From contig NZ_BCQQ01000022.1 in the NCBI RefSeq assembly GCF_001552155.1, forward strand, positions 1 through 64,000: a stretch of 64,000 bases of DNA, written 5' to 3'. The notes under the pieces are model-generated. The model saw nothing but the letters and a program-made list of their open reading frames with translations, had not been told where the DNA came from and ran no database searches. Position 1 is the stretch's first letter; each line of letters begins with the position of its first letter. Made by a program: the position numbers and the translations under genes. Below, piece by piece: positions 14,822 to 42,075 of the stretch. The stretch comes from Actinomadura formosensis NBRC 14204. GTDB taxonomy: Bacteria > Actinomycetota > Actinomycetes > Streptosporangiales > Streptosporangiaceae.

Positions 14822-14866
14822 AGCAGGTTACCTGCTAAACAGGCAACCTAAACAGGTTGCCTGTTT
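14822..14866. promoter_or_regulatory. Two palindromic operators upstream of the MFS gene
   Basis: Two perfect palindromes lie side by side. The first is AGCAGGT-T-ACCTGCT (14822-14836). The second has 13-bp arms, AAACAGGCAACCT and AGGTTGCCTGTTT, around four bases (14837-14866). Both carry the same CAGGT core. This is the form of TetR- or MarR-family operators guarding efflux genes. No divergent regulator gene adjoins it; the nearest regulator is the MarR gene at 15985. Confidence 0.7.
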
Positions 14867-14933
14867 AGTTGAGATACGGCACTTCGAGGGACGCGGAAGG
14901 CTCCCGAAGTCCTCCCTCCGATTCACTCCCCTC

Positions 14934-14995
14934 TTGCCAAGGATCCTGAACATGCTTAATGTGATCAGCATAAGGGTGTTCAGGGCTCCTGAACA
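14934..14995 (+). promoter_or_regulatory. Promoter with repeated CCTGAACA operator sites (first dioxygenase gene)
   Basis: Possible -35 TTGCCA (14934-14939) and -10 TAATGT (14957-14962) with 17 bases between. Within and after it are three copies of one 8-mer: CCTGAACA at 14945-14952, TGTTCAGG at 14977-14984 and CCTGAACA at 14988-14995. The last two form a palindrome with a 3-base centre. Probably the binding region of the MarR regulator encoded downstream. Confidence 0.5.
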
Positions 14996-15082
14996 TCAGA
15001 TGGCCTGATCCCGGTCGCCGGCGACTCTCGCCGTGGTGCGGAAGCAAGCCGACGTTGCCCGCTACTCGAGAAAGGCACCAGC

Positions 15083-15910
15083 ATGAGGGCAGTCCCACTC
15101 ACCGACAGCATCGGCGTCGAGCTCCAGGACCTCGACATGTCCAAGCCCTTCGGCCCCGACGAGGTCGAGGTCCTGCGAGAGGCGTTCGACACCGGGGGCG
15201 TCGTGCTGGTCCGAGGCCAGAAGCTCGCCGACGAGGACCAGGACCGGTTCGTCACCACGCTCGGCGAACTGCACACCTTCCGGTGGGGCACGACCGTCGA
15301 GTACCTCTCCAACGTCATCGAGGACAACCCGAGCCTGGCCGGCAGCCGCCGCCTGCTCTTCCACAACGACGGCGCCTACCGCGAAGACGTCGCGGCCGGT
15401 ACCTGCCTCTACGCCCAGGACGTCTCGCCCACGTCCCCGCCCACCGCCTTCGCGAACAGCGTGCGCGCCTACGAGAACCTGCCGGAAGAGATCAAGGTCA
15501 AGATCGAGGGCCTGCACGCCTACAACATGTTCGACCTCAACGACGCGGACGCCGAGCAGAAGCGGATGCGGCTGTCCGACTACCCCGAGGGCGCCGACCT
15601 CTCCAGCGTCCAGGCCGCCGAGCACCCGGTCGTGATCACCGTGCCGCACTCCGGGCGGAAGGCGCTGTTCGTCAACGAGTTCAACACCAGCCACATCGTT
15701 GAGTACGGCCCGGATTCCGAGGAGGGGGAGGAGCTCCTCCAGACCCTTTTCGCCGCCCTCTACGACGACGCCAACGTCTACACCCACCACTACGAGAACG
15801 ACGATCTCGTCCTGTTCAACAACCGCGCGGTCCAGCACGCTCGAACGGGTCAGGTCGACCACAACCCGCGCACCCTGCGCCGGCTCGTCCTGAAGACCCT
15901 GAACTGGTGA
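15083..15910 (+). CDS. TauD/TfdA-family Fe(II)/2-oxoglutarate dioxygenase (copy 1)
   Basis: 275 residues, the usual family length. The iron ligands are visible: H94-x-D96 in FHNDGAYRE and the distal H252 in VQHAR, with arginines just after (RTLRRLVLK) for 2-oxoglutarate binding. Such enzymes hydroxylate a substrate while decarboxylating 2-oxoglutarate; relatives act on taurine, phenoxyacetates and natural products. ATG at 15083 follows GAGAAAGG. A MarR regulator is encoded immediately downstream (15985). A paralogue lies at 37950 in the same island, with the catalytic motif at the same residue numbers and roughly half of the residues alike by eye. Confidence 0.9.
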   Translation: MRAVPLTDSIGVELQDLDMSKPFGPDEVEVLREAFDTGGVVLVRGQKLADEDQDRFVTTLGELHTFRWGTTVEYLSNVIEDNPSLAGSRRLLFHNDGAYREDVAAGTCLYAQDVSPTSPPTAFANSVRAYENLPEEIKVKIEGLHAYNMFDLNDADAEQKRMRLSDYPEGADLSSVQAAEHPVVITVPHSGRKALFVNEFNTSHIVEYGPDSEEGEELLQTLFAALYDDANVYTHHYENDDLVLFNNRAVQHARTGQVDHNPRTLRRLVLKTLNW

Positions 15911-15984
15911 GCCGTCCGGCGGGGCCCGCGGCGGTGAACCGGCCGCGGGCCCCCGCCACCCCACCCGTCACCGAAGGGCGGATC

Positions 15985-16482
15985 GTGTCTCGTGAAACGG
16001 CGACGGCCGGCATCGTCTCGCCCGTGCCGCCGGCGGGCGACGCGGCGAAGCTCGCCGCCGACATACGGGCGGCCGCGGGGCGGCTGATCCGGCGCGTCAG
16101 GCACGAGAGCGGGACGACGCTCACCTGGTCCCAGAGCGTCCTGCTGAGCGGACTGGCGAAGCACGGTCACGCGACGGCCAGCGAACTCGCCGTCGAGAAC
16201 GGCCTGCGGACGCAGACCGTCTGGTCGAGCCTCGTCACCCTGGAAGAGCGCGGGCTGGTCACGCGCCGGCGCGACGCGGCCGACCGCCGGAACGTGCACG
16301 CGTCCCTGACCCTGAGCGGCCAGAAGGAGCTGGAGGCGGACCGGCGGGCCCGCGAAGCCTGGATCGAGGGGGTCCTCGAACGCGAGTTCACCGTGGCGCA
16401 ACGGGAGGTCCTCGCCCAGGCGGTACCCCTGCTCGTGCGGCTTGCCGGCTCCGCCGGCCAGACCGCGCCGGGCGGCGGCTGA
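15985..16482 (+). CDS. MarR-family transcriptional regulator
   Basis: 165 residues with a winged helix-turn-helix in the middle: ATASELAVENGLRTQTVWSS as helix-turn-helix, then GLVTRRRDAADRRNVHASLT as wing. The GTG at 15985 has GAAGGG a short distance upstream. An earlier GTG at 15907 overlaps the dioxygenase stop (GTGA) but would add 26 proline/alanine-rich residues unlike the family. It probably controls the dioxygenase operon, whose upstream region holds repeated CCTGAACA sites, and responds to an aromatic or acidic ligand as many MarR proteins do (inference). Confidence 0.87.
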   Translation: MSRETATAGIVSPVPPAGDAAKLAADIRAAAGRLIRRVRHESGTTLTWSQSVLLSGLAKHGHATASELAVENGLRTQTVWSSLVTLEERGLVTRRRDAADRRNVHASLTLSGQKELEADRRAREAWIEGVLEREFTVAQREVLAQAVPLLVRLAGSAGQTAPGGG

Positions 16483-16512
16483 CCGGCGGCCGGGCCTGGA
16501 GCGGCCGCTTCT

Positions 16513-16557
16513 TGTGGCGGGCGGCCACCCTCTCTAGAATATGCGCATGGTATCCAT
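16513..16557 (+). promoter_or_regulatory. Shared-type promoter/operator (site 1), VOC/CoA-transferase unit
   Basis: -35 TTGTGG (16513-16518), 16 bases, -10 TAGAAT (16535-16540), ATGCGC, then the palindrome ATGG-TAT-CCAT (16547-16557). The same order of elements occurs at 29916, 35783 (minus strand) and 36939. The operator covers the expected transcription start. Confidence 0.65.
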
Positions 16558-16603
16558 ATTTGGATGCCCGCGCCGCGTCGCCCCTCGAACACGTGGAGTC
16601 AAC

Positions 16604-17455
16604 ATGCTTCTGTCGCGTCTGGGCTACATCACCCTCACCGTCGCCGATCTCGCCCCCGCGGTCGACCTGTTCGAGACGTGCGGCCAGTTGCAGCTCAACG
16701 GGAGAACGCACGACCGTGCCTTCCTCGGCGGCGCCGGCGAACACCACTGGATCGAGCTTCGCCAGGATCCCTCCCGGCCACCGGGCCTCGCGAAGATGGC
16801 GTTCGAGCTCGATCCCGGCGCCGCGTTCGAGGACGTCGAGAAGGCCCTCGCCGGGGTGGGAGTCGGCTACGAGCGCTCCCGCAGCCTCCGGGAGGACTTC
16901 GTCCAGGAGGCCCTCCGGTTCACCGACATGGACGGCACCGAGGTCGAGGTGTTCAGGGGGATGGCGCGCATCGCGGGCGGTGCCCAGCCGAAGTGGGCGC
17001 GGCTCGAACGCCTCGTGCACGTCGCGGTGTCCGCGTCCGACTTCGACGCCTCGCTGGCCTTCTACACCGAAGTACTCGGGCTGGGCGTCTCCGACTTCAT
17101 CGAGGACACCACCGCCTTCCTGCACGCGTCCGACGGCGCCCATCACTCCCTGGTGCTCCAGCGCCGTCCCGGCGCGCCCCGCTCGGTCGACCACGTCTGC
17201 TTCCAGACCGAGACCTTCGACGACGTCATGCGTGCCAGGGCGGTGGTCCGCCGCGCGGGTCTGGAACTGCGCGACGACCTCATCCGCCACGAGACCTCCG
17301 GGTCCATCGGCTTCTACTTCGAAGGACTTCCGGAAGGACTGGGCATCGAGTTCTGCTTCGAGCACGGGACCGTCGACCCGGCCACCCACCGCCCGAGGAC
17401 GTTCGTCCGGAGCCTGCAGGCCAAGGACGTCTACGAACCGCCGGCAGGGTTCTGA
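16604..17455 (+). CDS. Two-domain VOC protein, extradiol-dioxygenase-like
   Basis: 283 residues with two vicinal-oxygen-chelate domains, about 1-125 and 138-283. The second begins LERLVHVAVSASDFDASLAF and has DGAHHSLVLQ, DHVCFQTETFDDVM and GFYFEGLPEGLGIEFCFEHG. The arrangement and length recall type I extradiol ring-cleavage dioxygenases, whose metal ligands are two His and one Glu of the C-terminal domain; H139, H202 or H217 and E276 are candidates. A glyoxalase or isomerase role is possible instead. Start: ATG at 16604 with GGAG six bases upstream. The CoA-transferase gene follows without a gap. Confidence 0.8.
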   Translation: MLLSRLGYITLTVADLAPAVDLFETCGQLQLNGRTHDRAFLGGAGEHHWIELRQDPSRPPGLAKMAFELDPGAAFEDVEKALAGVGVGYERSRSLREDFVQEALRFTDMDGTEVEVFRGMARIAGGAQPKWARLERLVHVAVSASDFDASLAFYTEVLGLGVSDFIEDTTAFLHASDGAHHSLVLQRRPGAPRSVDHVCFQTETFDDVMRARAVVRRAGLELRDDLIRHETSGSIGFYFEGLPEGLGIEFCFEHGTVDPATHRPRTFVRSLQAKDVYEPPAGF

Positions 17456-18721
17456 GTGGACGGCGAACGCGAGGCCGCGCCCGCCGCCGCACCGGCCGAG
17501 GCGGCCTGCGAGAACGCGCGGGGGCCGCTGCACGGTGTCCGCGTGCTGGATCTGACCGGCACCATGTCCGGGCCCTTCTGCACGCTCCTGCTCGCCCAGC
17601 TCGGCGCCCGGATCGACAAGATCGAACCCCCCACCGGTGACGTCGTGCGGCACCTCACCCCCGGCAGGACCCCCGCCATGTCGCCGATCTTCCTCGCGCT
17701 CAACGCGGGGAAGCGGTCCATCGTCCTCGACCTCGCGAGGGAGCCCGACCGCGAGCTCCTCATGAGTTCGCTGCCCGAATACGACGTGGTCGTCCACAAC
17801 ATGCGCCCGCGGGCGGCGGCGCGGCTCGGGCTCACGGCGGAGAAGCTCGCCGCGGCCGGGTCCGAAGCCCTGCTGTGCGAGCTGGTGGGATTCGGGCCAG
17901 GCCCCTACGAGGACCGGCCCGCCTACGATGACACGATCCAGGCCGAGTCCGGCATGGCATGGGTGCAGGGCAACGGCGGGGAACCCGCCTACGTCCGCAC
18001 GGCGGTGGCCGACAAGACCGCGGGCATGTACGCGGCGCTCGCGATCTGCGCGGAGCTGGCGTCCCGGGCGGCCGGCGGGCCGCGGCGCTCGGTCAAGATC
18101 CCCATGTTCGAGACCATGGTGGCCTTCACCGCCGTCGAGCAGATGGGCGGTCTCACCTACGAGCCCGCCAACGGCCCCGCTCTCTATCCGAGGACCGCGT
18201 CACCGCACCGCAAGCCCTTTCCCACCCGTGACGGCCACGTCAGCCTGATGCTCTACACCGACCGGCACTGGGCGGCCTTCCTGAGCCGGATCGGCCGGTA
18301 CGACCTCGTCGACGAGCCCGCGTTCGCCACGCTCGCCGGGCGTACGGCGAACATCGACGAGGTCTATGCACTCGTGGCCGCCGAACTGCTCCAGAGGACC
18401 ACGGCGGAGTGGCTCGACATCCTTGAGGAGATAGACGTCCCTCACGCGCGCGTCCGCTCGCTGCCTGATCTGCTCACCGACCGCCACCTCGCCGCCGCCG
18501 CGCTGTTCCACGAGGTGGAGCACCCGACCGAAGGGACGGTCCGGTCCGTGCGCGCCCCCTTCCTGTTCGACGGCCGGCGACCCGCGGACCTGGCCCCGGC
18601 GCGAGCGCTCGGCCAGGACTCCGCCGGCTTCAGGCGGGCCGGGCGGGGACGGACCGCGACGCAGCGGACGTCGCCGCCGGCCGAAGCGTCCCTCGGCTCC
18701 ACCCCGCCCGATGAAGGGTGA
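17456..18721 (+). CDS. CaiB/BaiF family III CoA-transferase
   Basis: 421 residues. The N-terminus has the family opening GVRVLDLTGTMSGPFCTLLL followed by GARIDKIEPPTGD. The nucleophilic aspartate is expected in VADKTAGMYAAL. Such enzymes move CoA between carboxylic acids and start the degradation of compounds as CoA thioesters. The GTG start directly follows the TGA of the VOC gene, so the two form one unit under the shared-type promoter at 16513. The last 35 residues are low-complexity. The acid it activates is unknown; it provides substrate for the acyl-CoA dehydrogenase and enoyl-CoA hydratase elsewhere in the island (inference). Confidence 0.9.
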   Translation: MDGEREAAPAAAPAEAACENARGPLHGVRVLDLTGTMSGPFCTLLLAQLGARIDKIEPPTGDVVRHLTPGRTPAMSPIFLALNAGKRSIVLDLAREPDRELLMSSLPEYDVVVHNMRPRAAARLGLTAEKLAAAGSEALLCELVGFGPGPYEDRPAYDDTIQAESGMAWVQGNGGEPAYVRTAVADKTAGMYAALAICAELASRAAGGPRRSVKIPMFETMVAFTAVEQMGGLTYEPANGPALYPRTASPHRKPFPTRDGHVSLMLYTDRHWAAFLSRIGRYDLVDEPAFATLAGRTANIDEVYALVAAELLQRTTAEWLDILEEIDVPHARVRSLPDLLTDRHLAAAALFHEVEHPTEGTVRSVRAPFLFDGRRPADLAPARALGQDSAGFRRAGRGRTATQRTSPPAEASLGSTPPDEG

Positions 18722-18944: not shown

Positions 18945-19751
18945 ATGACGTCAACCCGACCCCACGACCCCTCGGAGGAGCAATTGAGCTCGCGGAACGG
19001 CGCCGGCCGCCTGGACGGTCGAGTCGCGATCGTCTCCGGAGGCGCGGGCGGGATCGGCCAAGGCGTGGCCGGGCTCTTCGTGGCGGAAGGCGCCTCCGTC
19101 ATGGTGTGCGACCTGCCCGAGTCCGAGGGCAAGGCCGTCGCCCAGTCCCTGGGGCCCGCCGCCGGGTACACGGCGCTCGATGTACGCGACCCCCGGCAGT
19201 GGCGGAACGCCGTCGAGGCGTGCACCGCTCAGTTCGGCGCCGAACCCGACATCCTCGTCCAGACGGCGGGGATCATGGTTTTCGGTCCCGTCGACACGGG
19301 CGACCCCGAGCAGTTCCGGACCGCTTTCGAGGTCAATGTCATGGGAACCCTGAACGGCATCCAGGCGGTCGCACCCGGCATGCGGCGGGGAGGCCGGGGC
19401 GCCATCGTGGTGGTCACGTCCATGGCGGGTGTGACCTTCGCCTGCAAGGCCATGGGCCCCTACGCCGCCAGCAAGGCCGCGGCGTCCTCGCTGGTGCGAA
19501 CGGCGGCCCTCGACTTCGCCGGCACCGGCATCCGGGTGAACTCCATCGTGCCGGGCCAGATCGACACGCCCATGTCGCGAGCGGCCGGCGTGACGGCCGA
19601 GTTCTTCGAGCAGATGCCCATTCCCCGCATCGGGCAGCCGCGCGACATCGCGAACGCGGCCCTGTATCTCTCCTCGGACGAGAGCTCCTGGGTGACCGGC
19701 ACGGATCTGCTCGTCGACGGCGGCATGGAGGCCGGGCCCGTCCTGGGGTGA
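18945..19751 (+). CDS. Short-chain dehydrogenase/reductase (SDR)
   Basis: 268 residues of classical SDR type. The cofactor-binding GGAGGIGQG is near residue 32, VCDLPESEGK follows beta-2, and the catalytic serine and Tyr-x3-Lys are in VVTSMAG and YAASKAA. The C-terminus carries WVTGTDLLVDGGM. Aspartate at the end of beta-2 suggests NAD rather than NADP. ATG at 18945 has AAGGGA upstream; an upstream start at 18921 would add eight residues. Probably oxidises an alcohol made by the island's oxygenases. An isochorismatase-fold gene follows 72 bases later in the same direction. Confidence 0.9.
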   Translation: MTSTRPHDPSEEQLSSRNGAGRLDGRVAIVSGGAGGIGQGVAGLFVAEGASVMVCDLPESEGKAVAQSLGPAAGYTALDVRDPRQWRNAVEACTAQFGAEPDILVQTAGIMVFGPVDTGDPEQFRTAFEVNVMGTLNGIQAVAPGMRRGGRGAIVVVTSMAGVTFACKAMGPYAASKAAASSLVRTAALDFAGTGIRVNSIVPGQIDTPMSRAAGVTAEFFEQMPIPRIGQPRDIANAALYLSSDESSWVTGTDLLVDGGMEAGPVLG

Positions 19752-19823: not shown

Positions 19824-20384
19824 ATGAGTGACCAGGCTCTGCTCGTCATGGACTTTCAACCCGCCGTCCTCCAGGCCGTCGGAGGTGATGAGAGCCCTGC
19901 CCTCGCGGCGGCCGTCTCAGCCGTCGAGGCCGCCCGCCGGGCGCAGGTTCCCGTCATCTTCGTCCGGGTCGCCTTCCGCTCGGGCTACCCGGAGGTGAAC
20001 CCCTCCAACAAGGGCCTGTCTCCCCTTTCCGGGTACGGCGACCTCTTCGTCGAGACCGAACCGACCACCCAGGTGCACTCGGCCCTCGGCGGCGACGCCG
20101 GGGACATCATCGTGACCAAGCGTCGCATCAGCGCGTTCGCCGGCACCGACCTCGGCTCGATCCTCACCGGGCTCGGCGTCTCCCGCCTCGTTCTCGCCGG
20201 CGTCGTCACCAGCGGTGTCGTGCTGTCGACCGTCCGCCACGCCGGCGACGCCGACTTCGAGATCACCGTTCTGTCCGACGCGTGCGCCGACACCGACGAC
20301 GAGGTCCACCAGGTCCTCATGGAAAAGGTCTTCCCCGGCCAGGCCGATGTCGTATCGACCAAGGAGTGGGCCGCCTCCCTCTGA
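19824..20384 (+). CDS. Isochorismatase-fold hydrolase lacking the usual cysteine
   Basis: 186 residues with the isochorismatase/cysteine hydrolase fold: Asp10 in LLVMDFQPAV and the lysine in IIVTKRRISAF. The position that carries the nucleophilic cysteine in amidohydrolases of this fold (GVxTxxCV) is valine here (GVVTSGVVLST, V132), as in isochorismatase-like members that need no cysteine. It is therefore unlikely to be a simple amidase; vinyl-ether hydrolysis or a non-enzymatic role is possible. ATG at 19824 follows GAGGAAGCACAC. A strong terminator ends the unit. Confidence 0.85.
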   Translation: MSDQALLVMDFQPAVLQAVGGDESPALAAAVSAVEAARRAQVPVIFVRVAFRSGYPEVNPSNKGLSPLSGYGDLFVETEPTTQVHSALGGDAGDIIVTKRRISAFAGTDLGSILTGLGVSRLVLAGVVTSGVVLSTVRHAGDADFEITVLSDACADTDDEVHQVLMEKVFPGQADVVSTKEWAASL

Positions 20385-20514: not shown

Positions 20515-21648
20515 TCAGATGCGGAACGCGAGGAGTTTCGAGCCGGGCACCGAAACGTAAGCCTCACTGCCCGCCGCGGGGAGGTCGCGATCCACACTCC
20601 ACACGCGCTGCTTCAACGGCCCCACGGACAGATCGGCCTCGGTGTGCGTACCGACGAACACCGAGGCGGCCACTGAGGCGAGCCAGGTGTTGGGAGAATC
20701 CGCCGGTGCCTCAGGCGCCACCGTGGCGCTTTCCGGACGCCAGATCAGCACCAGCTCGTCACCGACCGCCAGAGCGCGATCCCGATCGGTCGCCGACACC
20801 TTCCCGAGAGGCGTGTCCGCGATCACCTGCCCGTCGCCGTCCACCGACAGGACGGTGCCGGGGATCTTGTTCGCGGTGCCGATGAACGTCGCGACCTCCA
20901 GGGAGGCCGGCCGCGTGTACACGTCCCGAGGCGAGCCGAGCTGCCGGATCCTGCCACCGCCGAGGACCGCGATCCGGTCGGCCATCGCCATGGCCTCGCC
21001 CTGGTCGTGCGTCACGTACACGGCCGCGAATCCGATCTCCCGCTGCATCTCCAGCAGCTCGAACCGCAGTTCGTCCCGGACCCTCGCGTCGACGTTCGAC
21101 AACGGCTCGTCGAAGAGGACGAGTTCGTCGTTGGTGACCAGGGCCCTGGCCAAGGCGACGCGTTGCTGCTGCCCCCCGCTTATCTGGGACGGGTAGGAGT
21201 TCCTGAGATCCCCGATGCCGATCCGCTCGAGAGCACGCGCCACCCGCCCGGGTATGTCATGCCTGGCGACCTTGCGGTGGCGCAGCGGGAACGCGATGTT
21301 GTCGTAGACGGTCATGTGCGGCCACAGCGCGTACGACTGGAAGACCATGCTGAGGTTCCGTCGTTCCGGTGGGACGAAGACCCGCGATCGGCCCGAGAAG
21401 TAGGTCCTGCCGCGCATCCGGATCTCCCCGCCATCGGGCTCTTCGAGACCCGCGAGGCAGCGCAGCAGCGTCGTCTTGCCGCAGCCGCTGGGCCCGAGCA
21501 GGACGACGAACTCCCCCTGGGCGATCTTCAGCGACACCCCGTCCATCGCGGGCACGGTCTGACCGTCTCGCCGTGTGAACGACTTGTGCAGGTCCTCGAT
21601 CTCCACCAGGAGGTCCGGGGAAGGCCGCGCGGGGGTCACCTTGCTCAC
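20515..21648 (-). CDS. ABC transporter ATPase with TOBE domain (Fbp/Pot type)
   Basis: 377 residues. The ATPase domain (about 10-245) has Walker A GPSGCGKTT, signature QISGGQQQRVALARAL and Walker B ELVLFDEPLSNVD, with VTHDQGEA as the switch histidine region. A C-terminal TOBE domain (about 280-377) is typical of importers for ferric iron, thiamine, polyamines or phosphonates. The GTG at 21648 overlaps the TGA of the permease gene (GTGA), so translation is coupled. It energises the permease encoded upstream, together with the lipoprotein at 23520. Confidence 0.95.
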   Translation of the reverse strand: MSKVTPARPSPDLLVEIEDLHKSFTRRDGQTVPAMDGVSLKIAQGEFVVLLGPSGCGKTTLLRCLAGLEEPDGGEIRMRGRTYFSGRSRVFVPPERRNLSMVFQSYALWPHMTVYDNIAFPLRHRKVARHDIPGRVARALERIGIGDLRNSYPSQISGGQQQRVALARALVTNDELVLFDEPLSNVDARVRDELRFELLEMQREIGFAAVYVTHDQGEAMAMADRIAVLGGGRIRQLGSPRDVYTRPASLEVATFIGTANKIPGTVLSVDGDGQVIADTPLGKVSATDRDRALAVGDELVLIWRPESATVAPEAPADSPNTWLASVAASVFVGTHTEADLSVGPLKQRVWSVDRDLPAAGSEAYVSVPGSKLLAFRI

Positions 21649-23387: not shown

Positions 23388-23519
23388 GTGGGGCTCTCTC
23401 GGAGGCTCGTCGGCCGGTGCGGGCGGCTGGGCGGCGGCCGGGCGAGAACGCCCGCCGGGCCGGAACGCCCGAGCGTTCCCGCCCGCTGCCGTTGGAACCC
23501 GTGCGAGGGCGGACGGCGC

Positions 23520-25738: not shown

Positions 25739-25813
25739 GGTATGCAGATTATCTAAGCGGAGCCCTCTCGTCCAGACGGGGCGCCGACATCGCTGGGCGA
25801 TCGGGTGGGAAGT

Positions 25814-33281: not shown

Positions 33282-34253
33282 CTACAGGTCGAGGACGAGC
33301 TTCGGTGTATGGGAGCGGCCCACACAGATCAGCATCGTGCCCTCTTCGTCGTGCTCTTCGGGCGACATGAGGGTCCCCCGGTGATCCGGCCGCCCGGCGA
33401 GCACCCGGGTCTCGCAGCTGCCGCAGTAGCCCTCCTGGCACGAGAAGCCCAGGTCGCTCCTGATCGATTGGGCCGCCTCCAGGATGCTCTCATCCGCCGC
33501 GATCGTCAGCGTCACGCCCGAAGCCGCGAGCTCGACCTCGAACGCGGTGTCCTCGCCGCCCGCCGCCGGAGCGGCCCCCGATGCCGTGAACCGTTCCAGG
33601 TGCAGCCGGTCGGCGACTCCGGCGGCCGTGCACGCGTCCGTCATGGCATCGAGCAGCCCGGCGGGACCGCAGCAGTACAGAAGAGCCCCTTCGGGCAGTG
33701 CTCGCACGATGCCGGGCACGTCCAGAAGACCGGCCTCGTCCTGGGGGACCACGGTCGTCCGCTCTCCGCCGAGGGCCGCGAGTTCCGAGACGAACGCCAT
33801 GGAGGCTCGGGCGCGGCCGCCGTAGACCAGCCGCCAGGAGGCGCCGCGGCGCTCGACCTCCTCCACCATCGCCTTGATCGGCGTGATGCCGATACCGCCG
33901 GCCACGAACAGGTACTCGTCCGCGTCGACGAGCGGGAAGTGGTTGCGGGGAAGGCGAGCCTCGATCTCATCGCCGGCCTTGAGGTCACGGTGCACCTCGA
34001 CCGATCCCCCTCGTCCCTGCTCCTCCCTGAGGACGCAGAACGTGTAGGAACTCGTGTCCGCGGGGTCCCCGCACAGCGAGTACTGGCGGGACAGCCCGGA
34101 GGGCAGCCGCAGTTCCAGGTGCGCCCCCGGCTCCCACGGCGGGAGCGGGCCGCCGCCGACGGCCTCGAACTCGAGCAGGAGAACGCTCTCGGCGACCTGC
34201 TCGGTACGGTCGAGGATCAGCTTGAGCCTGGAGTCGCCGGTGCCGTCGGCCAT
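33282..34253 (-). CDS. Phthalate-dioxygenase-reductase-type oxidoreductase (FMN, NADH, 2Fe-2S)
   Basis: 323 residues in the order flavin domain, NAD domain, ferredoxin. The flavin motif RQYSLCGDP is near residue 66, the pyridine-nucleotide motif GGIGITPIKAM near 120, and a plant-type 2Fe-2S site C-x4-C-x2-C (FSCQEGYCGSCETRV) plus a final cysteine in MLICVGRS near the C-terminus. It passes electrons from NAD(P)H to a partner oxygenase. ATG at 34253 lies two bases after the P450 stop with GGGGGGA upstream, so the partner is almost certainly the P450 at 34256. Confidence 0.93.
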   Translation of the reverse strand: MADGTGDSRLKLILDRTEQVAESVLLLEFEAVGGGPLPPWEPGAHLELRLPSGLSRQYSLCGDPADTSSYTFCVLREEQGRGGSVEVHRDLKAGDEIEARLPRNHFPLVDADEYLFVAGGIGITPIKAMVEEVERRGASWRLVYGGRARASMAFVSELAALGGERTTVVPQDEAGLLDVPGIVRALPEGALLYCCGPAGLLDAMTDACTAAGVADRLHLERFTASGAAPAAGGEDTAFEVELAASGVTLTIAADESILEAAQSIRSDLGFSCQEGYCGSCETRVLAGRPDHRGTLMSPEEHDEEGTMLICVGRSHTPKLVLDL

Positions 34254-35518: not shown

Positions 35519-35760
35519 GCTGAGTTCCTCAATTCGCGTTCCGGCCGGCCGAAGGTTGACGTTGTCTGCTCGCTGGGCGTGGGCCACGGTCCGACGGCTC
35601 CGTCCGGTCCGCCTCGGCCCCGAGCCGGGCGGGCGGCGGCGCGCCGGTCCCGCGTGAAGCCGTGCGCCGCCGGCGGGTACGTCATCGGCGTCGGGATCGG
35701 CGTGGCCGAGCCGAGAAGGGCTCTCTCCCGCGGGCCGGCGAGGACATCCAATGGCCAAGT

Positions 35761-35806
35761 ATAGTTACCATGCACATAGTATAGGTGGATGCCGGCGACG
35801 CCACAA
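35761..35806 (-). promoter_or_regulatory. Shared-type promoter/operator (site 3), P450-reductase unit
   Basis: On the minus strand: -35 TTGTGG (35806-35801), 17 bases, -10 TATACT (35783-35778), ATGTGC, then ATGGTAACTAT (35771-35761). The core is identical to site 2 and the -35 identical to site 1. It also lies between the P450 and GntR genes, so it may serve both. The 35519-35760 leader holds no recognisable gene. Confidence 0.75.
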
Positions 35807-35945: not shown

Positions 35946-36719
35946 GTGGCAGGTCCTGTGCAGAGGCCGATGAAGCAGTCCGAGATCGTGGCGCGCGACC
36001 TCACCAACCGCATCGTGTCCGAGAACCTGGCCGAAGGCACCCGGCTGCCGAACGAGCGCGAGATGCTGGAGACCTACCAGGTCGGTCGCAGCACCCTGCG
36101 CGAGGCTCTGCGGCTGCTGGAGAGCCGGGGTGTGCTCACCATCAGGTCCGGCCGCGACGGCGGACCGGTCGTGCGCGGTCCCCGCGCCTCGGACCTGGGC
36201 GAGGCGCTGACGCTGCTGCTGCAGTTCGAGCGCGTGCCGTTCTCCGAGGTCTTCGCCGCCCGGCAGGCGCTGGAGCCCCGGCTCGCGCGGATGGCGGCCG
36301 AGAACATGGACGACGAGACGCTCACCGAGATGGCCGCCTGCAACGAGCGGATGGCCGCCAACCTCGACGATCGCGAGCTGTTCCGCAAAGAGAACTTCCG
36401 GTTCCACGAGCTGGTGGCCGCGGCGGCGCAGAACAAGGTGCTCGAACTGTTCTCCGCGGCGCTGGAGTCGGTCGCGGACGGGCTCGCCTTCGGTGTGGTG
36501 GCCGGTCAGTTCACGCACGCCCACCGCGCCGTCGCGCTGGACGCCCACCGCAATCTGCTCAAGGCGTTCATCACACGCGATCCCGACGCCGCCGAAGAAG
36601 CGATGCGCGTCCACCTCGAAGAGGGCCGGGCCTCGTGGGTCGCCGCCTACCGGGACCTGTCACGCCGTCCCGTCCAGTGGGCATCAGCGGCCACACAGGC
36701 CACGCGCACCGAATTCTGA
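35946..36719 (+). CDS. GntR regulator, FadR subfamily
   Basis: 257 residues. The N-terminal winged helix (about 10-80) has LTNRIVSENLAEGTRLPNER, the recognition helix VGRSTLREALRLLESRGVL and a wing. The C-terminal FCD domain (about 100-240) shows the helical pattern with a metal site (acid and histidines such as NFRFHELV and HRAVALDAHRN). FadR-type regulators usually bind acyl-CoAs or small acids and repress nearby genes through T.GT..AC.A-like operators, compatible with the ATGGTA sites of this island. GTG at 35946 has AAGAAGGG eight bases upstream; a longer frame from 35751 is not protein-like. Best candidate for the island's main regulator. Confidence 0.92.
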   Translation: MAGPVQRPMKQSEIVARDLTNRIVSENLAEGTRLPNEREMLETYQVGRSTLREALRLLESRGVLTIRSGRDGGPVVRGPRASDLGEALTLLLQFERVPFSEVFAARQALEPRLARMAAENMDDETLTEMAACNERMAANLDDRELFRKENFRFHELVAAAAQNKVLELFSAALESVADGLAFGVVAGQFTHAHRAVALDAHRNLLKAFITRDPDAAEEAMRVHLEEGRASWVAAYRDLSRRPVQWASAATQATRTEF

Positions 36720-36936: not shown

Positions 36937-36973
36937 ACCATAACATGATTATGGTAGGGAGTTTTGTTATGGT
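36937..36973 (+). promoter_or_regulatory. Shared-type promoter/operator (site 4) with three TTATGGT half-sites
   Basis: ACCATAA (36937-36943), five bases, TTATGGT (36949-36955) is a perfect 7-bp-arm palindrome; another TTATGGT lies at 36967-36973. Read as a promoter it repeats the island layout: CATAAC, ATGATT, ATGGTA (36939-36956). It precedes the enoyl-CoA hydratase gene. Bases 36720-36936 between it and the GntR gene show no gene. Confidence 0.6.
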
Positions 36974-37022: not shown

Positions 37023-37787
37023 ATGAGCGTGACATCGCCGGTCGAGTACCGGGTCGTCGACAAGATCGCCTACATCCGGCTCAACCGGCCCGAAACGGCC
37101 AACGCACTCGACCTCGACCTTGCCCTCGCGCTGTGCGCCGCCGCGCAGGCGGCCGGCGGCGACGAGTCGGTCCATCTCGTGACACTGACGGCGGCAGGCG
37201 GACGTTTCTGCGCCGGTGGCGACCTCGCCGCCATGGCGGCCGACGGCGACACCGGGAAGTACGTGTACAAGCTCGCGACGGCCGTCGACACGTTCACGAA
37301 GATGCTGTGGGAGATGCCGAAGCCCGTACTGGCGAGCGTCCAGGGCGTGGCCGCCGGCGCCGGCCTGGCGCTCGTGCTGGCCGCCGACCTCGTCGTGGCG
37401 AGCCGCGATGCGCGGTTCCTGGCCGCGTACGGTGCGGTCAACCTGACTCCGGACTGCGGCCTGTCCTACCTTCTGCCGAGGAGCGTGGGCGAGCACCGCG
37501 CGCTGGAGATGACGCTCCTGGACCGGGTGCTGACCGCGGACGAGGCCGGCGAATGGGGCATCGTCACCATGGTCTGCGACAACGCCGAGCTGGCCGCCAC
37601 GACGGACGCCCTCGCCCGCAGGCTGCTCGCCAGATCGTCGTTCGCGCTCGGCAACACCAAGCGGCTCATCAGGCAGGGCTGGGAGCAGACACGGGTGGAC
37701 AGCGGCTGGGCGGAGACCGCTTCCATCGCACGGGCCGCCGCGACTCCCGAGGCCGCCGACGCCATCACGGCGCTCTTCCAACGCTGA
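37023..37787 (+). CDS. Enoyl-CoA hydratase/isomerase family protein
   Basis: 254 residues of the crotonase fold: IRLNRPETANALDLDL near residue 20, the CoA/oxyanion region AGGRFCAGGDLAAMA and GVAAGAGLALVLAADLVVAS. At the positions of the two catalytic glutamates of hydratases, the second region reads VNLTPDCGLSYLLPRSVG, where aspartate replaces the usual glutamate, as in isomerase-like members. The exact reaction is therefore uncertain. ATG at 37023 has GGAGGG upstream; an in-frame ATG at 36945 lies inside the operator and is rejected. Probably acts after the acyl-CoA dehydrogenase. Confidence 0.92.
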   Translation: MSVTSPVEYRVVDKIAYIRLNRPETANALDLDLALALCAAAQAAGGDESVHLVTLTAAGGRFCAGGDLAAMAADGDTGKYVYKLATAVDTFTKMLWEMPKPVLASVQGVAAGAGLALVLAADLVVASRDARFLAAYGAVNLTPDCGLSYLLPRSVGEHRALEMTLLDRVLTADEAGEWGIVTMVCDNAELAATTDALARRLLARSSFALGNTKRLIRQGWEQTRVDSGWAETASIARAAATPEAADAITALFQR

Positions 37788-37949: not shown

Positions 37950-38789
37950 GTGGAGGTCGTTCCGCTCAAAGCCGCGCTGGGTGCAGAACTGCGAGGCGTG
38001 GACCTCACCGAACCTCTGGACGACCGCGACGTCGAGACCGTGCGCAACGCGTTCGCCGACCACTTCCTGCTGGTCGTCCGCGATCAGCGCCTCAGCGGCG
38101 AGGACCAGGACCGGTTCGTCCGCTACCTGGGCCCGCTCCAGCGGTTCGACAACGGCGCCTATCACCAGTTCATGACGAACCAGGCCGTGGAGAACGCCGC
38201 GGAGGCCGGTTCGGGACGGCTGCTCTTCCACAACGACGGCGCCTACCGTGAACGCCCCCGTGCCGGGACGTCGCTCTACGCCATCGACGTCTCACCGACG
38301 TCCCCTCCGACGAGCTTCGCCAACGGCGTCCGCGCCTACGAGCTCCTGCCCGGGGAGCTTCGGCGGAGAATCGAGTCGCTCAGCGCGGTCCACATCCTCG
38401 ACTACGACGACCCCGAGCAGGAGTCGAACCGTGTCCGGGAGGCCGACTTCCCAGCCGGAAGGACCTTGGCGGACGTCCGTCATGCCGTCCACCCGATGGT
38501 GGTGACCCTGCCCCACAGCGACCGCAAGGCCGTGTTCGTCAGCGAGTTCTACACCAGTCACATCAAGGAGCTCGGGCCCACCTCCGAGGAGGGCGAGGAT
38601 CTCCTGCAGCAGGTCTTCAAGATCCTCTACCAGGAGTCCAACGTCCACTCGCACCACTACCGCAACGGCGACCTCGTCGTATGGGACAACCACGCCGCGC
38701 AGCACGCCCGCTCGGGCTCGGTCGACTCCAACCCGCGCCACCTGCGTCGCCTGGTCCTCGACCGGCTGTCGTGGAGCCGGACGGCATGA
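37950..38789 (+). CDS. TauD/TfdA-family Fe(II)/2-oxoglutarate dioxygenase (copy 2)
   Basis: 279 residues, paralogous to the gene at 15083. The iron ligands are H94-x-D96 in FHNDGAYRE and a distal histidine in AAQHARSG, followed by RHLRRLVLDRL for 2-oxoglutarate. Shared stretches such as DVSPTSPPT, FANxVRAYE and GEDLLQ indicate duplication, while the first 85 residues differ more. GTG at 37950 has AGGAG eight bases upstream; an earlier in-frame start at the -35 element is rejected. Its TGA overlaps an ATG of the next gene. Confidence 0.9.
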   Translation: MEVVPLKAALGAELRGVDLTEPLDDRDVETVRNAFADHFLLVVRDQRLSGEDQDRFVRYLGPLQRFDNGAYHQFMTNQAVENAAEAGSGRLLFHNDGAYRERPRAGTSLYAIDVSPTSPPTSFANGVRAYELLPGELRRRIESLSAVHILDYDDPEQESNRVREADFPAGRTLADVRHAVHPMVVTLPHSDRKAVFVSEFYTSHIKELGPTSEEGEDLLQQVFKILYQESNVHSHHYRNGDLVVWDNHAAQHARSGSVDSNPRHLRRLVLDRLSWSRTA

Positions 38790-38839: not shown

Positions 38840-39769
38840 GTGAAGGTCGGAATCATCGGTCTCGGCAACATGGGCGAACAGATCGCCGCCGCCGTCATCC
38901 GGGCGGGAATCGAGACACACGTCTACGACATTCGTCCCGAAGCGATCGCGAAGCTCGTGGCACAGGGTGGCCACGGCGCCGCCTCGGTCAAGGAGCTGGC
39001 CGAGGCGGTGGACGTCATCGGAGTGGTGGTCCTCAACGAACAGCAGGTCAGCCGGGTCGCGGACGACATTGCCGCGGCGGGGCGGCCCCGTACGATGGTC
39101 GTCCACAGCACCGTCACGCCCTCCTATGTCCAGGAACTCCACACGCGCCTCGCCTCATGCGGGGTGGCCGTCGTCGACGCCCCGGTCGCCGGCGGCGTCG
39201 CACGTGCCAGGACCGGTGACCTCACCGTCATGATCGGTGGAGACGACGCGGTGGTGGCCGGCCTCGGTCCCGTGTTCGAGGCCATCGGCCGCGACATCTT
39301 CCACGTGGGCCCGGCGGGCGCCGGAACGGCGGTCAAGCTGGCCGTGAACTTCATGACCATCGCGGGCTACGCCCTTGAGATCGAAGCGATGGAGATGGTC
39401 CGGGCCTACGGGCTCACCGAGGACGCGCTGAGCACCGTCCTCACCACCAGCTCCGCGGACTCGCGTGCCGTGCGCCGGTGGGGCTTCCATGATCGTCTTC
39501 GGCGTGCGGCGCCCCCGGGGACCGAACCGTCGCACCTCGTCATGCGCAAGGACGTCGCCTCCTTCGCGACCGCCGGGGGCCAGGCCGGCCTGATCCTTCC
39601 GCTGGCGGCCGTCGCCGCGCAGACCCTCCTCGGCACGATCGAGAAACGCGACCGGTACCTCGACGAACTGGGCGACGTGCCTCCCGTTCCGTGCTGCGCG
39701 GCCTGCACCCAGGAACTGATCCCGCCGTTCCGGGAGGCGGGCGTGCACCCTGAGTGCGCCACCTCGTAG
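38840..39769 (+). CDS. 3-hydroxyisobutyrate dehydrogenase-like NAD(P)-dependent oxidoreductase
   Basis: 309 residues. Rossmann motif VGIIGLGNMGEQIA at the N-terminus, DAPVAGGVARARTGDLTVMI (substrate-binding signature) near residue 120 and the catalytic lysine in GAGTAVKLAVNFM. The helical domain follows. The last 40 residues are unusual for the family, with a CCAAC cluster and a final cysteine. Start: GTG at 38840 has AGGAG six bases upstream; an ATG at 38786 overlaps the dioxygenase stop (ATGA) and would add 18 unconserved residues. Probably oxidises a hydroxy acid formed by the preceding dioxygenase. Confidence 0.9.
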   Translation: MKVGIIGLGNMGEQIAAAVIRAGIETHVYDIRPEAIAKLVAQGGHGAASVKELAEAVDVIGVVVLNEQQVSRVADDIAAAGRPRTMVVHSTVTPSYVQELHTRLASCGVAVVDAPVAGGVARARTGDLTVMIGGDDAVVAGLGPVFEAIGRDIFHVGPAGAGTAVKLAVNFMTIAGYALEIEAMEMVRAYGLTEDALSTVLTTSSADSRAVRRWGFHDRLRRAAPPGTEPSHLVMRKDVASFATAGGQAGLILPLAAVAAQTLLGTIEKRDRYLDELGDVPPVPCCAACTQELIPPFREAGVHPECATS

Positions 39770-39899: not shown

Positions 39900-40382
39900 G
39901 TGGAGACCGATTCGACAACGCCGGAACTCGCCATGGCGCTGTCACTCGCGACCGCCAGGCTGCGGGCCCGCCTGCGCAGCGAACAGGCCGAGGTCACCAC
40001 CGGCCAGAACATGTCCCAGCTTTCGGTGCTCGGCCGCATCTCCGAGGCGGGCACGACGACCGCCAGCGAGCTCGCCAAGGCCGAACACGTCCGCCAGCAG
40101 TCCATCGCCGAGACGGTGGCCGGCCTCAAACGGCAGGGGCTCGTGTACAGCCGGCCCGATCCGTCCGACGGCCGCAAAGCGCTCCTCAGCCTCACCGAAT
40201 CCGGCGCGGATCTCGTCCGCTCGATCGTCGAGCACCGCGGGGCATGGCTCGCCCGCGCCCTCGACGCCCACGTCACGGCCGCCGAGCGGGCGGTGCTGGC
40301 GCAGGCCACCGAGATCATGTTCCGGCTGGCCGACTGCCCCCCGCTGCGCGAGGCACCCCCGCCCGAGCGCGAGACGCCCTGA
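39900..40382 (+). CDS. MarR-family transcriptional regulator (second)
   Basis: 160 residues with a MarR winged helix: LSVLGRISEAGTTTASELAK, recognition helix region VRQQSIAETVAGLKRQGLVY and wing SRPDPSDGRKALLSLTESG. The GTG start has no strong ribosome binding site. It lies between the dioxygenase-dehydrogenase unit and the convergent P450 gene, and may act on the TCTGTTAAG palindrome at 37916 or the GTTAC palindrome at 41790 (inference). Confidence 0.87.
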   Translation: METDSTTPELAMALSLATARLRARLRSEQAEVTTGQNMSQLSVLGRISEAGTTTASELAKAEHVRQQSIAETVAGLKRQGLVYSRPDPSDGRKALLSLTESGADLVRSIVEHRGAWLARALDAHVTAAERAVLAQATEIMFRLADCPPLREAPPPERETP

Positions 40383-40449: not shown

Positions 40450-40487
40450 GCACCTGTCGCGGCGGCGGCGCCGGCCGCGACAGGTGC
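40450..40487. terminator. Bidirectional hairpin between MarR and P450 genes
   Basis: Perfect 14-bp stem GCACCTGTCGCGGC/GCCGCGACAGGTGC with a 10-base loop, between convergent genes. Confidence 0.75.
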
Positions 40488-40539
40488 CCGCCACGGCGTG
40501 ATTCGCTCCGCGCCCGGCCACAGCGGGGACGGGGCGAGA

Positions 40540-41769
40540 TCAGCGGTGGAATCGCACCGGCATCGCCGTCCAGCTGTTGCGGATGATGTGGATCACCGGA
40601 GTGGCCGGCGCGGCGAGCTCGATGCGCGTGAACTCGTCCAGCAGCGCATTGAGCACGATCGGTGCCTCAAGGCGGACGAGTCGCGACCCCGCGCACACGT
40701 GCGCTCCGGCCGAGAAACTGAGGTGCTTGACGCTTTCGGCCCGGCTGACGTCGAAGCGGTACGGATCGGGGAAGACCGCCTCGTCACGGTTGGCGGCCAT
40801 GTACATCAGGTAGACGTGCTGACCTTCCCGGATGAGCTGACCGTTGAGCTCGGTGTCCGCGACAGCTGTACGCAGGAACGCGCGCGCGGGAGTGACCCAG
40901 CGAAGTGTCTCCTCGATCGCGAGAGGGACCAGCGACCGGTCATCGCGGAGCTTCTGCCACTGGTCGGGGTGCTGGGCCAGTTGATGGACCAGCCCGGCGA
41001 GCAGCGCGCGGGTCGTGTCGCTCCCGGCCGCCATCATGGTCATGGCGAACATGACGACGTTGGCCTCGGAGACCTTCTTCTGGTCCAGCTCCGCCTCTAG
41101 CAGGACGGTGAGCAGGTCCTCGCCACCGGGATTCTGCTTCTTGGCCTCGATGCTCTCGATGATGTACCGCTGGAGGCTCTGGAACTCGGTCGCCGCGGCG
41201 CGGAGCTCGTCGAACGTGAGGTCGGCGCCGAGCTTCTCCAGCTCGTCGCTCCAGTGCTGGACCCGCTTGACGTCGGTGTCGGGGAGTCCGATCAGGTGCG
41301 TCGCGGCGATGATCGGGACCACGCTCGCGCTGGGGATCCAGTCGACCACCTCGCCGGATCCGATCCCGCGGACCAGGTCGCGGACGACCTCGGTGAGCGT
41401 GCCCCGCATCCGTTCCAGTGCGCGGGCCGAGAACGCGGGGGCGATGACGCGGCGAAGCTCCTGGTGCCGGGGCGGGTCGGTGGTGCCGACCTGCTCGCCG
41501 CCCTTGGGGAAGAAGCTGTCGGTCAGCAGCTCGCCGCCGGCCTGGGCCTGGTACTTCACGTCGTTCAGGAACAGGCCCCTGGAGCTGACGAACTCCGACG
41601 GGCGGCGGGTCACGGCGTGGATGTCGGCGTGCCGGGTGAGGACGAACGTGTCCAGGGGCTCGTAGTAGTAGAAGGGCTGCTCTCTCCGCATCCACTCGAA
41701 CGTGGGCCACGGGTCGTCGAGGTAGAAGTGCGGGTCCTCGATCGGGACGGTTGGTGCGGCGACGGACAT
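40540..41769 (-). CDS. Cytochrome P450 (canonical)
   Basis: 409 residues, typical bacterial class I P450. The I-helix has AAGSDTTR with the standard acid-alcohol pair, the K-helix EETLR and the heme loop FSAGAHVCAGSRL with the thiolate cysteine. ATG at 41769 has GGAGG 8-9 bases upstream. The divergent ferredoxin gene at 41869 is its likely electron donor. Unlike the other P450 of this island it has no reductase beside it. The 99-base shared upstream region holds a GTTAC palindrome. Confidence 0.95.
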   Translation of the reverse strand: MSVAAPTVPIEDPHFYLDDPWPTFEWMRREQPFYYYEPLDTFVLTRHADIHAVTRRPSEFVSSRGLFLNDVKYQAQAGGELLTDSFFPKGGEQVGTTDPPRHQELRRVIAPAFSARALERMRGTLTEVVRDLVRGIGSGEVVDWIPSASVVPIIAATHLIGLPDTDVKRVQHWSDELEKLGADLTFDELRAAATEFQSLQRYIIESIEAKKQNPGGEDLLTVLLEAELDQKKVSEANVVMFAMTMMAAGSDTTRALLAGLVHQLAQHPDQWQKLRDDRSLVPLAIEETLRWVTPARAFLRTAVADTELNGQLIREGQHVYLMYMAANRDEAVFPDPYRFDVSRAESVKHLSFSAGAHVCAGSRLVRLEAPIVLNALLDEFTRIELAAPATPVIHIIRNSWTAMPVRFHR

Positions 41770-41789
41770 CTGCGCCCTCCGTAAATAGT

Positions 41790-41800
41790 GTTACTGTAAT
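41790..41800. promoter_or_regulatory. Palindrome between P450 and ferredoxin genes
   Basis: GTTAC-T-GTAAT, with a perfect TTAC-T-GTAA core, in an AT-rich 30-base stretch between the divergent P450 and ferredoxin genes. It is placed to control one or both promoters. No clear -35/-10 pair could be fixed. Confidence 0.4.
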
Positions 41801-41868
41801 CAACGTAATGAGGGTCACATTGGGTCGTCAAGAGTCCGTGGCCCGCCGTCCATCGACCGGAGAGGCGG

Positions 41869-42075
41869 ATGAGTCAGATGCAGCGTGTCGGAGCTGACCC
41901 CCGCGTATGCATGGGGTCCGGGCTCTGCGAACACATCGCGCCGACCCACTTCAAGGTGGAGAACGGCGCCGTGACCCTGATCGAGGAGGTCGTGGCTCCG
42001 GACCGGGAGGACGAGGTCACGGAGGCCGTCGACGCCTGCCCGACCAGGGCTCTTCGCCTTCTCTCGGGGCCCTGA
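41869..42075 (+). CDS. 3Fe-4S ferredoxin
   Basis: 68 residues. Cluster ligands: C14 and C20 in RVCMGSGLCEHIAP (C-x5-C, with serine where a fourth cysteine would be, hence 3Fe-4S) and the distal cysteine in DACPTRALRL. Such small ferredoxins carry electrons to actinomycete P450s. ATG at 41869 has GGAG six bases upstream; an ATG at 41878 is possible. Divergent from the P450 gene at 40540, its probable partner. Confidence 0.92.
   Translation: MSQMQRVGADPRVCMGSGLCEHIAPTHFKVENGAVTLIEEVVAPDREDEVTEAVDACPTRALRLLSGP

Follow-up and report, generated by a model that had tools for sequence, protein, structure and literature searches.

A conserved and largely co-regulated catabolic island in Actinomadura formosensis with a probable meta-cleavage pathway

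Introduction

Two described systems are close to the locus considered here. In the first, the cym/cmt pathway, a Rieske enzyme dioxygenates p-cumate, CmtC cleaves and CmtD decarboxylates, and CmtE splits the product into isobutyrate and 2-hydroxypenta-2,4-dienoate (PMC4097962 and PMC5224996, as excerpted). The other, the rhodococcal Aph alkylphenol island, is actinobacterial and combines meta cleavage with a linked P450 and a reductase (excerpt of PMC6710988). This article examines a stretch of 64,000 nucleotides from Actinomadura formosensis NBRC 14204 (contig NZ_BCQQ01000022.1, positions 1 to 64,000; the window), in which a run of 27 genes (g15-g41, the island), mostly common to two Streptomyces genomes, looks like one jointly controlled catabolic pathway. 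Overall, the pathway appears real, conserved and largely co-regulated; meta cleavage is well supported, and an isopropyl-substituted arene is the best guess for its substrate. In the open-licence literature, searched by titles and abstract openings, no such pathway was found among the matches listed, and the gene set plus its regulon provides a testable basis for one.

Genes of the window were called with our own codon-usage script and numbered g01-g58. All 30 proteins of g14-g43 were scanned against Pfam, and 20 of the 28 of g14-g41 against NCBIfam; the own-genome assembly comprises 7.08 Mb in 339 contigs at 70% G+C. An earlier note, made from the sequence alone, had proposed the island and listed its enzyme families, and Pfam bears the list out almost throughout. 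There are two TauD/TfdA dioxygenases (g15, g37), two P450s (g34, g40) with separate redox partners (a FAD/2Fe-2S reductase, g33, and a small ferredoxin, g41), three VOC proteins (g17, g24, g25), a family III CoA-transferase (g18), an acyl-CoA dehydrogenase (g29), an enoyl-CoA hydratase (g36) and an ABC importer (g21-g23). The 4,5-dihydroxyphthalate-decarboxylase-family protein is g30 (phmmer E 3.9e-52 to PDB 9jp7), and the two hydrolases are g28, a C-C hydrolase of the meta-cleavage-product (MCP) type, and g32, which is haloalkane-dehalogenase-like. Of the five dehydrogenases claimed, four are found (SDR g19, aldehyde dehydrogenase g26, zinc alcohol dehydrogenase g31 and the 3-hydroxyisobutyrate-dehydrogenase (HIBADH)-type g38); a fifth is reached only by counting g29 again. 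Pfam adds families beyond that list, namely an isochorismatase-fold protein (g20), a Dabb-domain protein (g27), two MarR regulators (g16, g39) and a GntR/FCD regulator (g35). Below, families are from Pfam unless stated otherwise, supplemented by NCBIfam for g17, g19, g21-g23, g26, g31-g33 and g36; percentages in brackets after coordinates are identities to the Streptomyces odonnellii ortholog.

Conservation of the gene set

Relatives of the island were located by scanning named genomes with the P450 g34. Twelve stretches matched the search pattern and two were confirmed; the scan required exact short peptides, so that orthologs may have been missed. The two confirmed stretches, with g34 relatives at 64-65% identity, belong to Streptomyces sp. 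MnatMP-M17 (L048) and S. odonnellii NRRL B-24891 (L049). Comparison of the window proteins, one by one, with those of the whole S. odonnellii contig (86,141 bp; E <= 1e-8) gives reciprocal best hits for 23 of the 28 genes g14-g41. A core of 18 of the 28 (g15-g20, g24-g31, g33-g35 and g38) is 64-87% identical over at least 80% of the length, and five reciprocal matches are weaker: g14 (53%), g36 (47%), g39 (50% over 62% of its length), g40 (37%) and g41 (50%). The importer genes g21, g22 and g23, and also g32, have no match on this contig at the same threshold and therefore lie outside the conserved core. The proposal that the island is one unit thus holds for most genes, but not for these four, nor clearly for g37, whose relation is only a 52% match to the g15 ortholog. 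None of the 30 flanking genes (g01-g13, g42-g58) matches the contig at that threshold, which, together with the 23 reciprocal hits, places the borders proposed in the earlier note near the true borders of the conserved set. Gene order is rearranged between the window and Streptomyces.

Two contigs of MnatMP-M17 carry 12 of the 18 core orthologs (g15-g20, g24, g25, g30, g34, g35 and g38); none of the orthologs of g26-g29 and g31 turned up on the two contigs, which are short and to which the search was confined. As its cluster genes share 85-98% identity with their S. odonnellii counterparts, MnatMP-M17 does not count as independent evidence. With this proviso, the expected conserved neighbourhood is present in two Streptomyces genomes, and the suggestion that the genes form one pathway is strengthened both by the set conserved in S. 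odonnellii (and on the MnatMP-M17 contigs) and by an operator matrix that transfers between the genera.

Elsewhere the cluster is rare. In the sample of the genus of S. odonnellii, orthologs of g17 (82-83%) occur in 2 of 392 genomes, which are the two already known. Among 65 genomes of the genus of the window, g17 has matches in 13 at E <= 1e-20 and g30 in 21, the own genome included in both counts; the others reach at most 39% for g17, the best-scoring other for g30 is at 39%, and thus no close homolog of either was found in the other 64 genomes. The picture is similar at higher rank (own genome included throughout): 3 of 298 genomes in the family sample match g17, the others at 35-36%; in the class sample, 4 of 394 match g17 at E <= 1e-50 (others 37-39%) and 6 of 394 match g34 at E <= 1e-30 (others 29-33%). 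These samples overlap, and several of the searches score few candidates per genome. Among plasmid records, the best g17 match is at 38%, and the listed g34 matches that cover at least 80% are at 28-30%, so that neither gene has a close ortholog there. From this rare and patchy distribution we infer that the island has probably spread by horizontal transfer. Its G+C content (69.7%) lies between those of its flanks (68.8 and 71.8%), so that composition gives no sign of recent import.

A shared operator

Alignment of upstream regions in the window reveals three near-identical sites: before g17 (16536..16559, + strand, score 39.4), in the divergent promoter between g29 and g30 (29917..29940, +, 43.2) and in that between g34 and g35 (35759..35782, -, 42.2). 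These seeds, found by construction, define an operator matrix, in the building of which the S. odonnellii contig was not used. In the window the matrix also picks a site in the promoter of g25-g24 (25726..25749, +, 25.1) and a weak candidate before g36 (36940..36963, +, 15.0). Four island sites therefore score at least 20 and five at least 14, three of the five being seeds, and none occurs in the remaining window, in agreement with the shared promoter motifs noted earlier. A site at 18881 before g19 (8.8) is within noise, the best score outside the island being 10.2.

On the S. odonnellii contig, the eight best sites are all intergenic, all within the cluster, and centred 18-47 bp before the nearest called gene start. 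They front o72 (g29), o41 (g17), o36, o63 (g25), o68 (g30), o55 (g31), o64 and o56 (a g40 remnant); o57, the g41 homolog, starts 70 bp off on the other side of the o56 site. Six sites in the cluster half of the contig score at least 14, with none in the other 38 kb, and 300 column-permuted matrices yield a mean of 0.26 such sites and a maximum of 2, so that none reaches six. In 20 first-order Markov resamples, the top chance score is 14.6 for the window, just below the g36 site, and 16.5 for S. odonnellii; the six sites (31.7 to 16.9) exceed the latter value and the remaining ones do not, the seventh and eighth (12.8 and 12.5) also falling under the 14 line. Since both the gene set and the operator-bearing promoters recur in the two genera, most of the island is predicted, with near certainty, to be one jointly regulated and conserved regulon. 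In Streptomyces this regulon is apparently wider than in the window, because the shared operator is also found (at 43412) in the promoter of an aldehyde dehydrogenase gene.

That gene and one for an MmgE/PrpD protein adjoin the S. odonnellii cluster (contig 43464-46625; L066 3464-6625). As for the search itself, a pattern guessed for the operator matched only once, with 3 mismatches, and was replaced by the matrix from aligned promoters; 12-mers common to the window and the S. odonnellii promoters were mostly noise or coding ends, and a few A+T-rich ones led to the matrix.

Among the regulators, the MarR protein g16 (16024..16482, +; 76%) and the GntR/FCD protein g35 (35970..36719, +; 80%) are conserved, and the MarR protein g39 (39933..40382, +; 50% over 62% of its length) weakly so. 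The promoter of g15 carries dyads other than the shared operator. A palindrome with 12-bp arms and 0 mismatches, also detected as a minus-strand self-match, is a candidate operator in the divergent g14/g15 promoter (14835..14868). A second dyad, of the type GTTCAGG...CCTGAAC, lies upstream of g15 (14975..14997); it was noticed by eye only, as was a similar dyad in the TauD/GntR promoter region of S. odonnellii.

Predicted ring cleavage and lower pathway

The family assignments of g17, g28, g30, g18 and g29 make it highly probable that the island encodes an extradiol (meta) ring-cleavage pathway for a small aromatic compound. The two-domain type I extradiol dioxygenase g17 (16604..17455, +; 82%) aligns with BphC (PDB 1dhy and 1han), placing His-139, His-197 and Glu-249 at the metal-ligand positions and an HH pair (180-181) at the position of the catalytic His. 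At one more His of 1han (in ...NDHMVSFY), g17 has Gly and 1dhy has Gln. The alpha/beta hydrolase g28 (27584..28501, -; 82%) has MCP hydrolases as its best PDB relatives, namely 2d0d and 1iun (2-hydroxy-6-oxo-7-methylocta-2,4-dienoate hydrolase), 4lxg and 1j1i. In the case of g30 (29990..30958, +; 66%), the match to 9jp7 extends over residues 13-318. Relatives of g30 with 26-43% identity occur in 20 of the 64 other genomes of the genus, with at most 7 per genome; since they are so common, membership of the family does not fix a function, and g30 is a candidate decarboxylase. Of the two enzymes of CoA chemistry, g18 (17456..18721, +; 84%) is the family III CoA-transferase, and g29 (28597..29742, -; 83%) has short-chain acyl-CoA dehydrogenases as its nearest named relatives.

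Both Streptomyces clusters further contain genes for an IclR regulator, a 2-hydroxypentadienoate hydratase-type enzyme, an acylating acetaldehyde dehydrogenase and a DmpG-type aldolase. Another contig of the own genome (C9) carries homologous genes for all four, arranged alike, at 44-55% identity and with a divergent IclR.

Oxygenases, redox partners and importer

The divergent P450 g34 (34256..35518, -) has Asn-235 and Asn-236 where the second P450, g40 (40540..41769, -), has the usual Asp-Thr pair, and the two Streptomyces orthologs share the Asn pair (3/3). In an alignment of ten distant g34 relatives, the first position is never acidic, and the second is always Ser or Thr. The top PDB match of g34 is 4wpz with 45.8 bits (best 60 of 102 matches). 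Assignment to the family of GcoA, the P450 of the GcoAB guaiacol O-demethylase system, was rejected, as g34 scores 28-29 bits against GcoA-type entries, which many other P450s equal or exceed; likewise, a substrate could not be read from relatives of g34 at about 27-33% identity, whose clusters have no visible common gene set. One such cluster, on the Sphingobium sp. TKS plasmid pTK2 (L070, on which the gene finder performed poorly), is proteobacterial and places a distant g34 relative beside ferredoxin, TauD, SDR, CoA-transferase and AMP-binding genes, and another actinomycete (G133; L085 7789-11832) has three tandem P450s at about 30-33% to g34.

The presumed partner of g34 is the FAD/NAD/2Fe-2S reductase g33 (33282..34253, -; 64%), and that of g40 the small ferredoxin g41 (41911..42075, +), whose reciprocal best hit in S. 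odonnellii, at 50%, is divergently arranged as well. In S. odonnellii the g40 ortholog is a remnant (residues 89-190 and 355-407), which leaves two possibilities for the second P450 there: it is not needed, or its place is taken by o66, a full-length relative with 37% identity. The S. odonnellii cluster holds a further P450 with a PaaE-like reductase (L067 16789-19173; 37% to g40 and 51% to g33), a pair with counterparts in MnatMP-M17 (L069) and no ortholog in the window.

The TauD/TfdA proteins, which belong to the alpha-ketoglutarate-dependent dioxygenases, are g15 (15083..15910, +; 87%) and its paralog g37 (37950..38789, +; 52% to the g15 ortholog, non-reciprocal). Both keep HND at 94-96, His-252 and an Arg-rich motif at 261-267 (for g15 also by alignment with TauD), which correspond to the HxD...H facial triad and the Arg that binds 2-oxoglutarate. 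The PDB relatives of g15 include TauD, RdpA and AtsK, and its matches extend to (R)-phenoxypropionate and 2,4-D dioxygenases.

The ABC importer comprises an ATPase, a fused permease and a binding protein (g21-g23; 20515..24566, -). A 2-aminoethylphosphonate importer (PhnS2/T2/U2 and relatives) was considered and rejected, as the scores stay below the NCBIfam equivalog cut-offs (score/cut-off: g21 328/458, g22 118/593, g23 best 49/310).

Nature of the substrate

The reading of the side chain depends largely on the Streptomyces clusters. In S. odonnellii, a run of genes for IcmF, 3-hydroxyacyl-CoA dehydrogenase, thiolase and enoyl-CoA hydratase lies between the orthologs of g41 and g24/g25, and the same run stands beside the g41 homolog of MnatMP-M17, at a contig end. 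The S. odonnellii IcmF aligns with the solved enzyme PDB 4xc6 at 1609 bits over residues 12-1083 of 1083. Combined with meta cleavage, an IcmF homolog elsewhere in the own genome and the short-chain type of g29, this run suggests that the CoA ester of the released acid is isomerised to butyryl-CoA, which would make the acid isobutyrate and the ring isopropyl-bearing. An isobutyryl product, which we infer in this way, is the weakest link of the scheme and only somewhat favoured over its absence; that the regulon, meta cleavage and an isopropyl-type product (from a compound of the p-cymene, p-cumate, thymol or carvacrol type) all hold together has an even chance, and each of these compounds, named singly, is an unlikely choice.

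If it is right, the P450 systems (g34/g33, g40/g41) and the TauD enzyme(s) would hydroxylate the side chain and the ring; as the island has no Rieske oxygenase, they presumably stand in for one. The zinc alcohol dehydrogenase g31 (30990..32078, +; 64%) and the aldehyde dehydrogenase g26 (25814..27268, -; 69%) would convert the alcohol to the acid, g17 would open the resulting catechol, g30 would take off the carboxyl group, and g28 would release isobutyrate and 2-hydroxypenta-2,4-dienoate from the ring-fission product. Isobutyrate would be activated by g18, isobutyryl-CoA mutase would isomerise the CoA ester to butyryl-CoA, and this would enter beta-oxidation through g29 and g36, an enoyl-CoA hydratase-family protein (37023..37787, +) whose 47% reciprocal best hit belongs to the S. 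odonnellii IcmF operon. Hydratase, aldolase and acetaldehyde dehydrogenase may complete the other half. The full proposal, a Rieske-free route in which the Asn-Asn P450 lineage and a TauD-type dioxygenase make a carboxylated isopropylcatechol, a dihydroxyphthalate-decarboxylase-family protein takes part in meta cleavage and IcmF carries isobutyrate to butyryl-CoA, the whole being mostly controlled by a single operator and exchanged among genera of actinomycetes, is put forward tentatively and is rather unlikely to be correct in every part.

Several observations weigh against this interpretation. The own-genome homolog of IcmF (76-77%) is on contig C139 and thus outside the island; no island ortholog was seen on that contig, only an acyl-CoA dehydrogenase 34% identical to g29. 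No operator site occurs just before the Streptomyces IcmF gene (o58) among the 16 best sites, and IcmF can serve general branched-acid metabolism. The acyl group is not discriminated by g28, which scores 94.7 bits to 2d0d, 94.3 to 4lxg and 90.2 to 1j1i. No NCBIfam model cut-off is reached, among the matches listed, by the 20 island proteins scanned. An ortholog of g33 is absent from its S. odonnellii place in MnatMP-M17, where a 54% relative is found on the second contig. Unlike cym/cmt (as excerpted), the island has no Rieske p-cumate 2,3-dioxygenase: Pfam finds no Rieske oxygenase domain among g14-g43, nor a Rieske domain in the 19 S. odonnellii proteins and one MnatMP-M17 protein scanned, the remaining Streptomyces proteins being judged by homology alone. 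A plain cymene/cumate scheme also leaves the roles of the TauD, paired VOC, Dabb, isochorismatase-fold and HIBADH-type proteins unexplained. Finally, a phenolic acid decarboxylase gene (Pfam E 2.3e-74) adjoins the g34 ortholog of S. odonnellii (contig 46818-47288; L049 11498-11968) and would fit a phenylpropanoid better than an isopropyl arene. As MnatMP-M17 lacks it at the corresponding place and Pfam finds none among g14-g43, the case for an isopropyl arene is left unchanged.

Alternative explanations

The same conserved regulon and ring cleavage could serve an aromatic with another substituent. Candidates are alkylphenols, phenylpropanoids, phthalate-like diacids and aryl ethers that TauD would cleave; the IcmF operon would then be a Streptomyces addition for a different acid. 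This is a real possibility, if short of an even one: g28 is equally near to several MCP hydrolases, genes of the g17 and g30 types co-occur with Rieske genes in a phthalate-like setting in other genomes (L103, L105, L106), and the dioxygenase matches of g15, the phenolic acid decarboxylase gene next to the S. odonnellii P450 and the Aph island with its P450 and reductase (PMC6710988, excerpt) all point the same way. However, orthologs of island genes flank the IcmF operon on both sides in S. odonnellii and on one side in MnatMP-M17, and g36 is the reciprocal best hit of its hydratase, if at 47% only. A larger terpenoid or steroid ring system, for example an abietane diterpenoid or an oestrogen, in which the extradiol step would be only one part, is improbable. 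Abietanes also bear an isopropyl group, and distant relatives of the P450 stand in catabolic clusters such as that of the Sphingobium plasmid with its TauD, CoA-transferase and SDR genes; against this, g14-g43 include one acyl-CoA dehydrogenase, one enoyl-CoA hydratase and no thiolase, and no steroid-specific NCBIfam cut-off is reached among the matches listed for the 20 of 28 proteins.

That two or more unrelated catabolic units merely lie side by side is very improbable: three regulators, the unconserved importer and g32, the lack of an own ortholog for g37 and the rearranged gene order would fit, but the same genes occur together in another genus with an operator common to both. A biosynthetic tailoring cluster of the pentalenolactone type can be given still less credence. 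Although g15, g37 and g40 are weakly similar to pentalenolactone enzymes in NCBIfam, far under cut-off, Pfam finds no terpene synthase, ketosynthase or condensation domain in g14-g43, and ring-cleavage and CoA-catabolic genes are present instead.

If the substrate proves to be a plant monoterpenoid aromatic, this would mean that non-Rieske oxygenases can feed a cumate-type meta-cleavage route, and roles would emerge for an unusual P450 lineage and for poorly assigned families (dihydroxyphthalate-decarboxylase-like, Dabb and paired VOC proteins).

Other genes and surroundings

For some conserved proteins we offer no confident function: the isochorismatase-fold hydrolase g20 (19824..20384, +; 80%), the single-domain VOC (Glyoxalase_4) proteins g24 and g25 (24786..25687, -; 77% and 74%), which are paired in S. 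odonnellii too, the Dabb-domain protein g27 (27265..27567, -; 73%) and the 3-hydroxyisobutyrate-dehydrogenase-family protein g38 (38840..39769, +; 75%). The SDR dehydrogenase g19 (18984..19751, +; 71%) belongs to the core; the alpha/beta hydrolase g32 (32157..33173, +) has only short, weak paralog matches in the two Streptomyces. At the left edge, the MFS transporter g14 (13253..14653, -; MFS_1) is possibly linked, its 53% reciprocal best hit lying beside the S. odonnellii cluster.

Further left is a GmrSD-type restriction endonuclease homolog with both Pfam domains (5567-7780, -). Directly to the right of the island follow a DUF4132 protein (42157-44766, -) and an S-adenosyl methyltransferase (Methyltransf_19; 44930-45775, +); on the same side there is also a collagenase homolog of Peptidase M9 that has PKD and PPC domains (46768-49299, -).

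Comparison with known systems

As far as the excerpted sources describe the cym/cmt systems of Pseudomonas putida F1 and Burkholderia xenovorans LB400, the island resembles them in its alcohol and aldehyde dehydrogenases, extradiol dioxygenase, decarboxylase and MCP hydrolase. The hydratase, aldolase and acetaldehyde dehydrogenase of cym/cmt recur in both Streptomyces clusters and, at 44-55%, elsewhere in the own genome, and the likeness in the isobutyrate product rests on the Streptomyces IcmF operon. IcmF of the 4xc6 type is found in the Streptomyces clusters, but off the island, on another contig, in the window genome. Relative to the same descriptions, the additional components are P450s, TauD, CoA-transferase, a VOC pair, Dabb and, in Streptomyces only, IcmF, and the regulators differ; CmtD of LB400 is listed with 244 residues, compared with 322 in g30.

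The Aph island shares extradiol and lower pathway genes, a P450/reductase and butyryl-CoA as an end product, but starts with the two-component alkylphenol hydroxylase AphAB, unlike the island of the window; the excerpt of PMC6710988 makes no mention of TauD, CoA-transferase III or a dihydroxyphthalate-decarboxylase-family gene.

Rieske-type clusters in three genomes of the genus of the window (G009, G034, G055) and on the Pseudonocardia plasmid pBCI1-2 are also similar. They combine a hydrolase (40-43% to g28), an extradiol dioxygenase (35-38% to g17), an SDR, an acyl-CoA dehydrogenase, a CoA-transferase and a GntR regulator, the plasmid cluster also holding IclR and lower meta-cleavage genes, and their gene content is like that of a cumate-like pathway. 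They have a Rieske oxygenase and an amidohydrolase where the island has P450/TauD and the dihydroxyphthalate-decarboxylase-family protein; the two names are from the plasmid annotation, tied by BLAST to G034 (69% and 53%) and by eye to G009 and G055. In other genomes, L103, L105 and L106 have a g17-like extradiol gene (35-37%), a g30-like gene (31-33%) and Rieske genes; L102 and L104 have a g17-like gene (37-38%) and neither of the other two. These related clusters suggest that the island is a P450/TauD variant of a wider actinobacterial cluster family.

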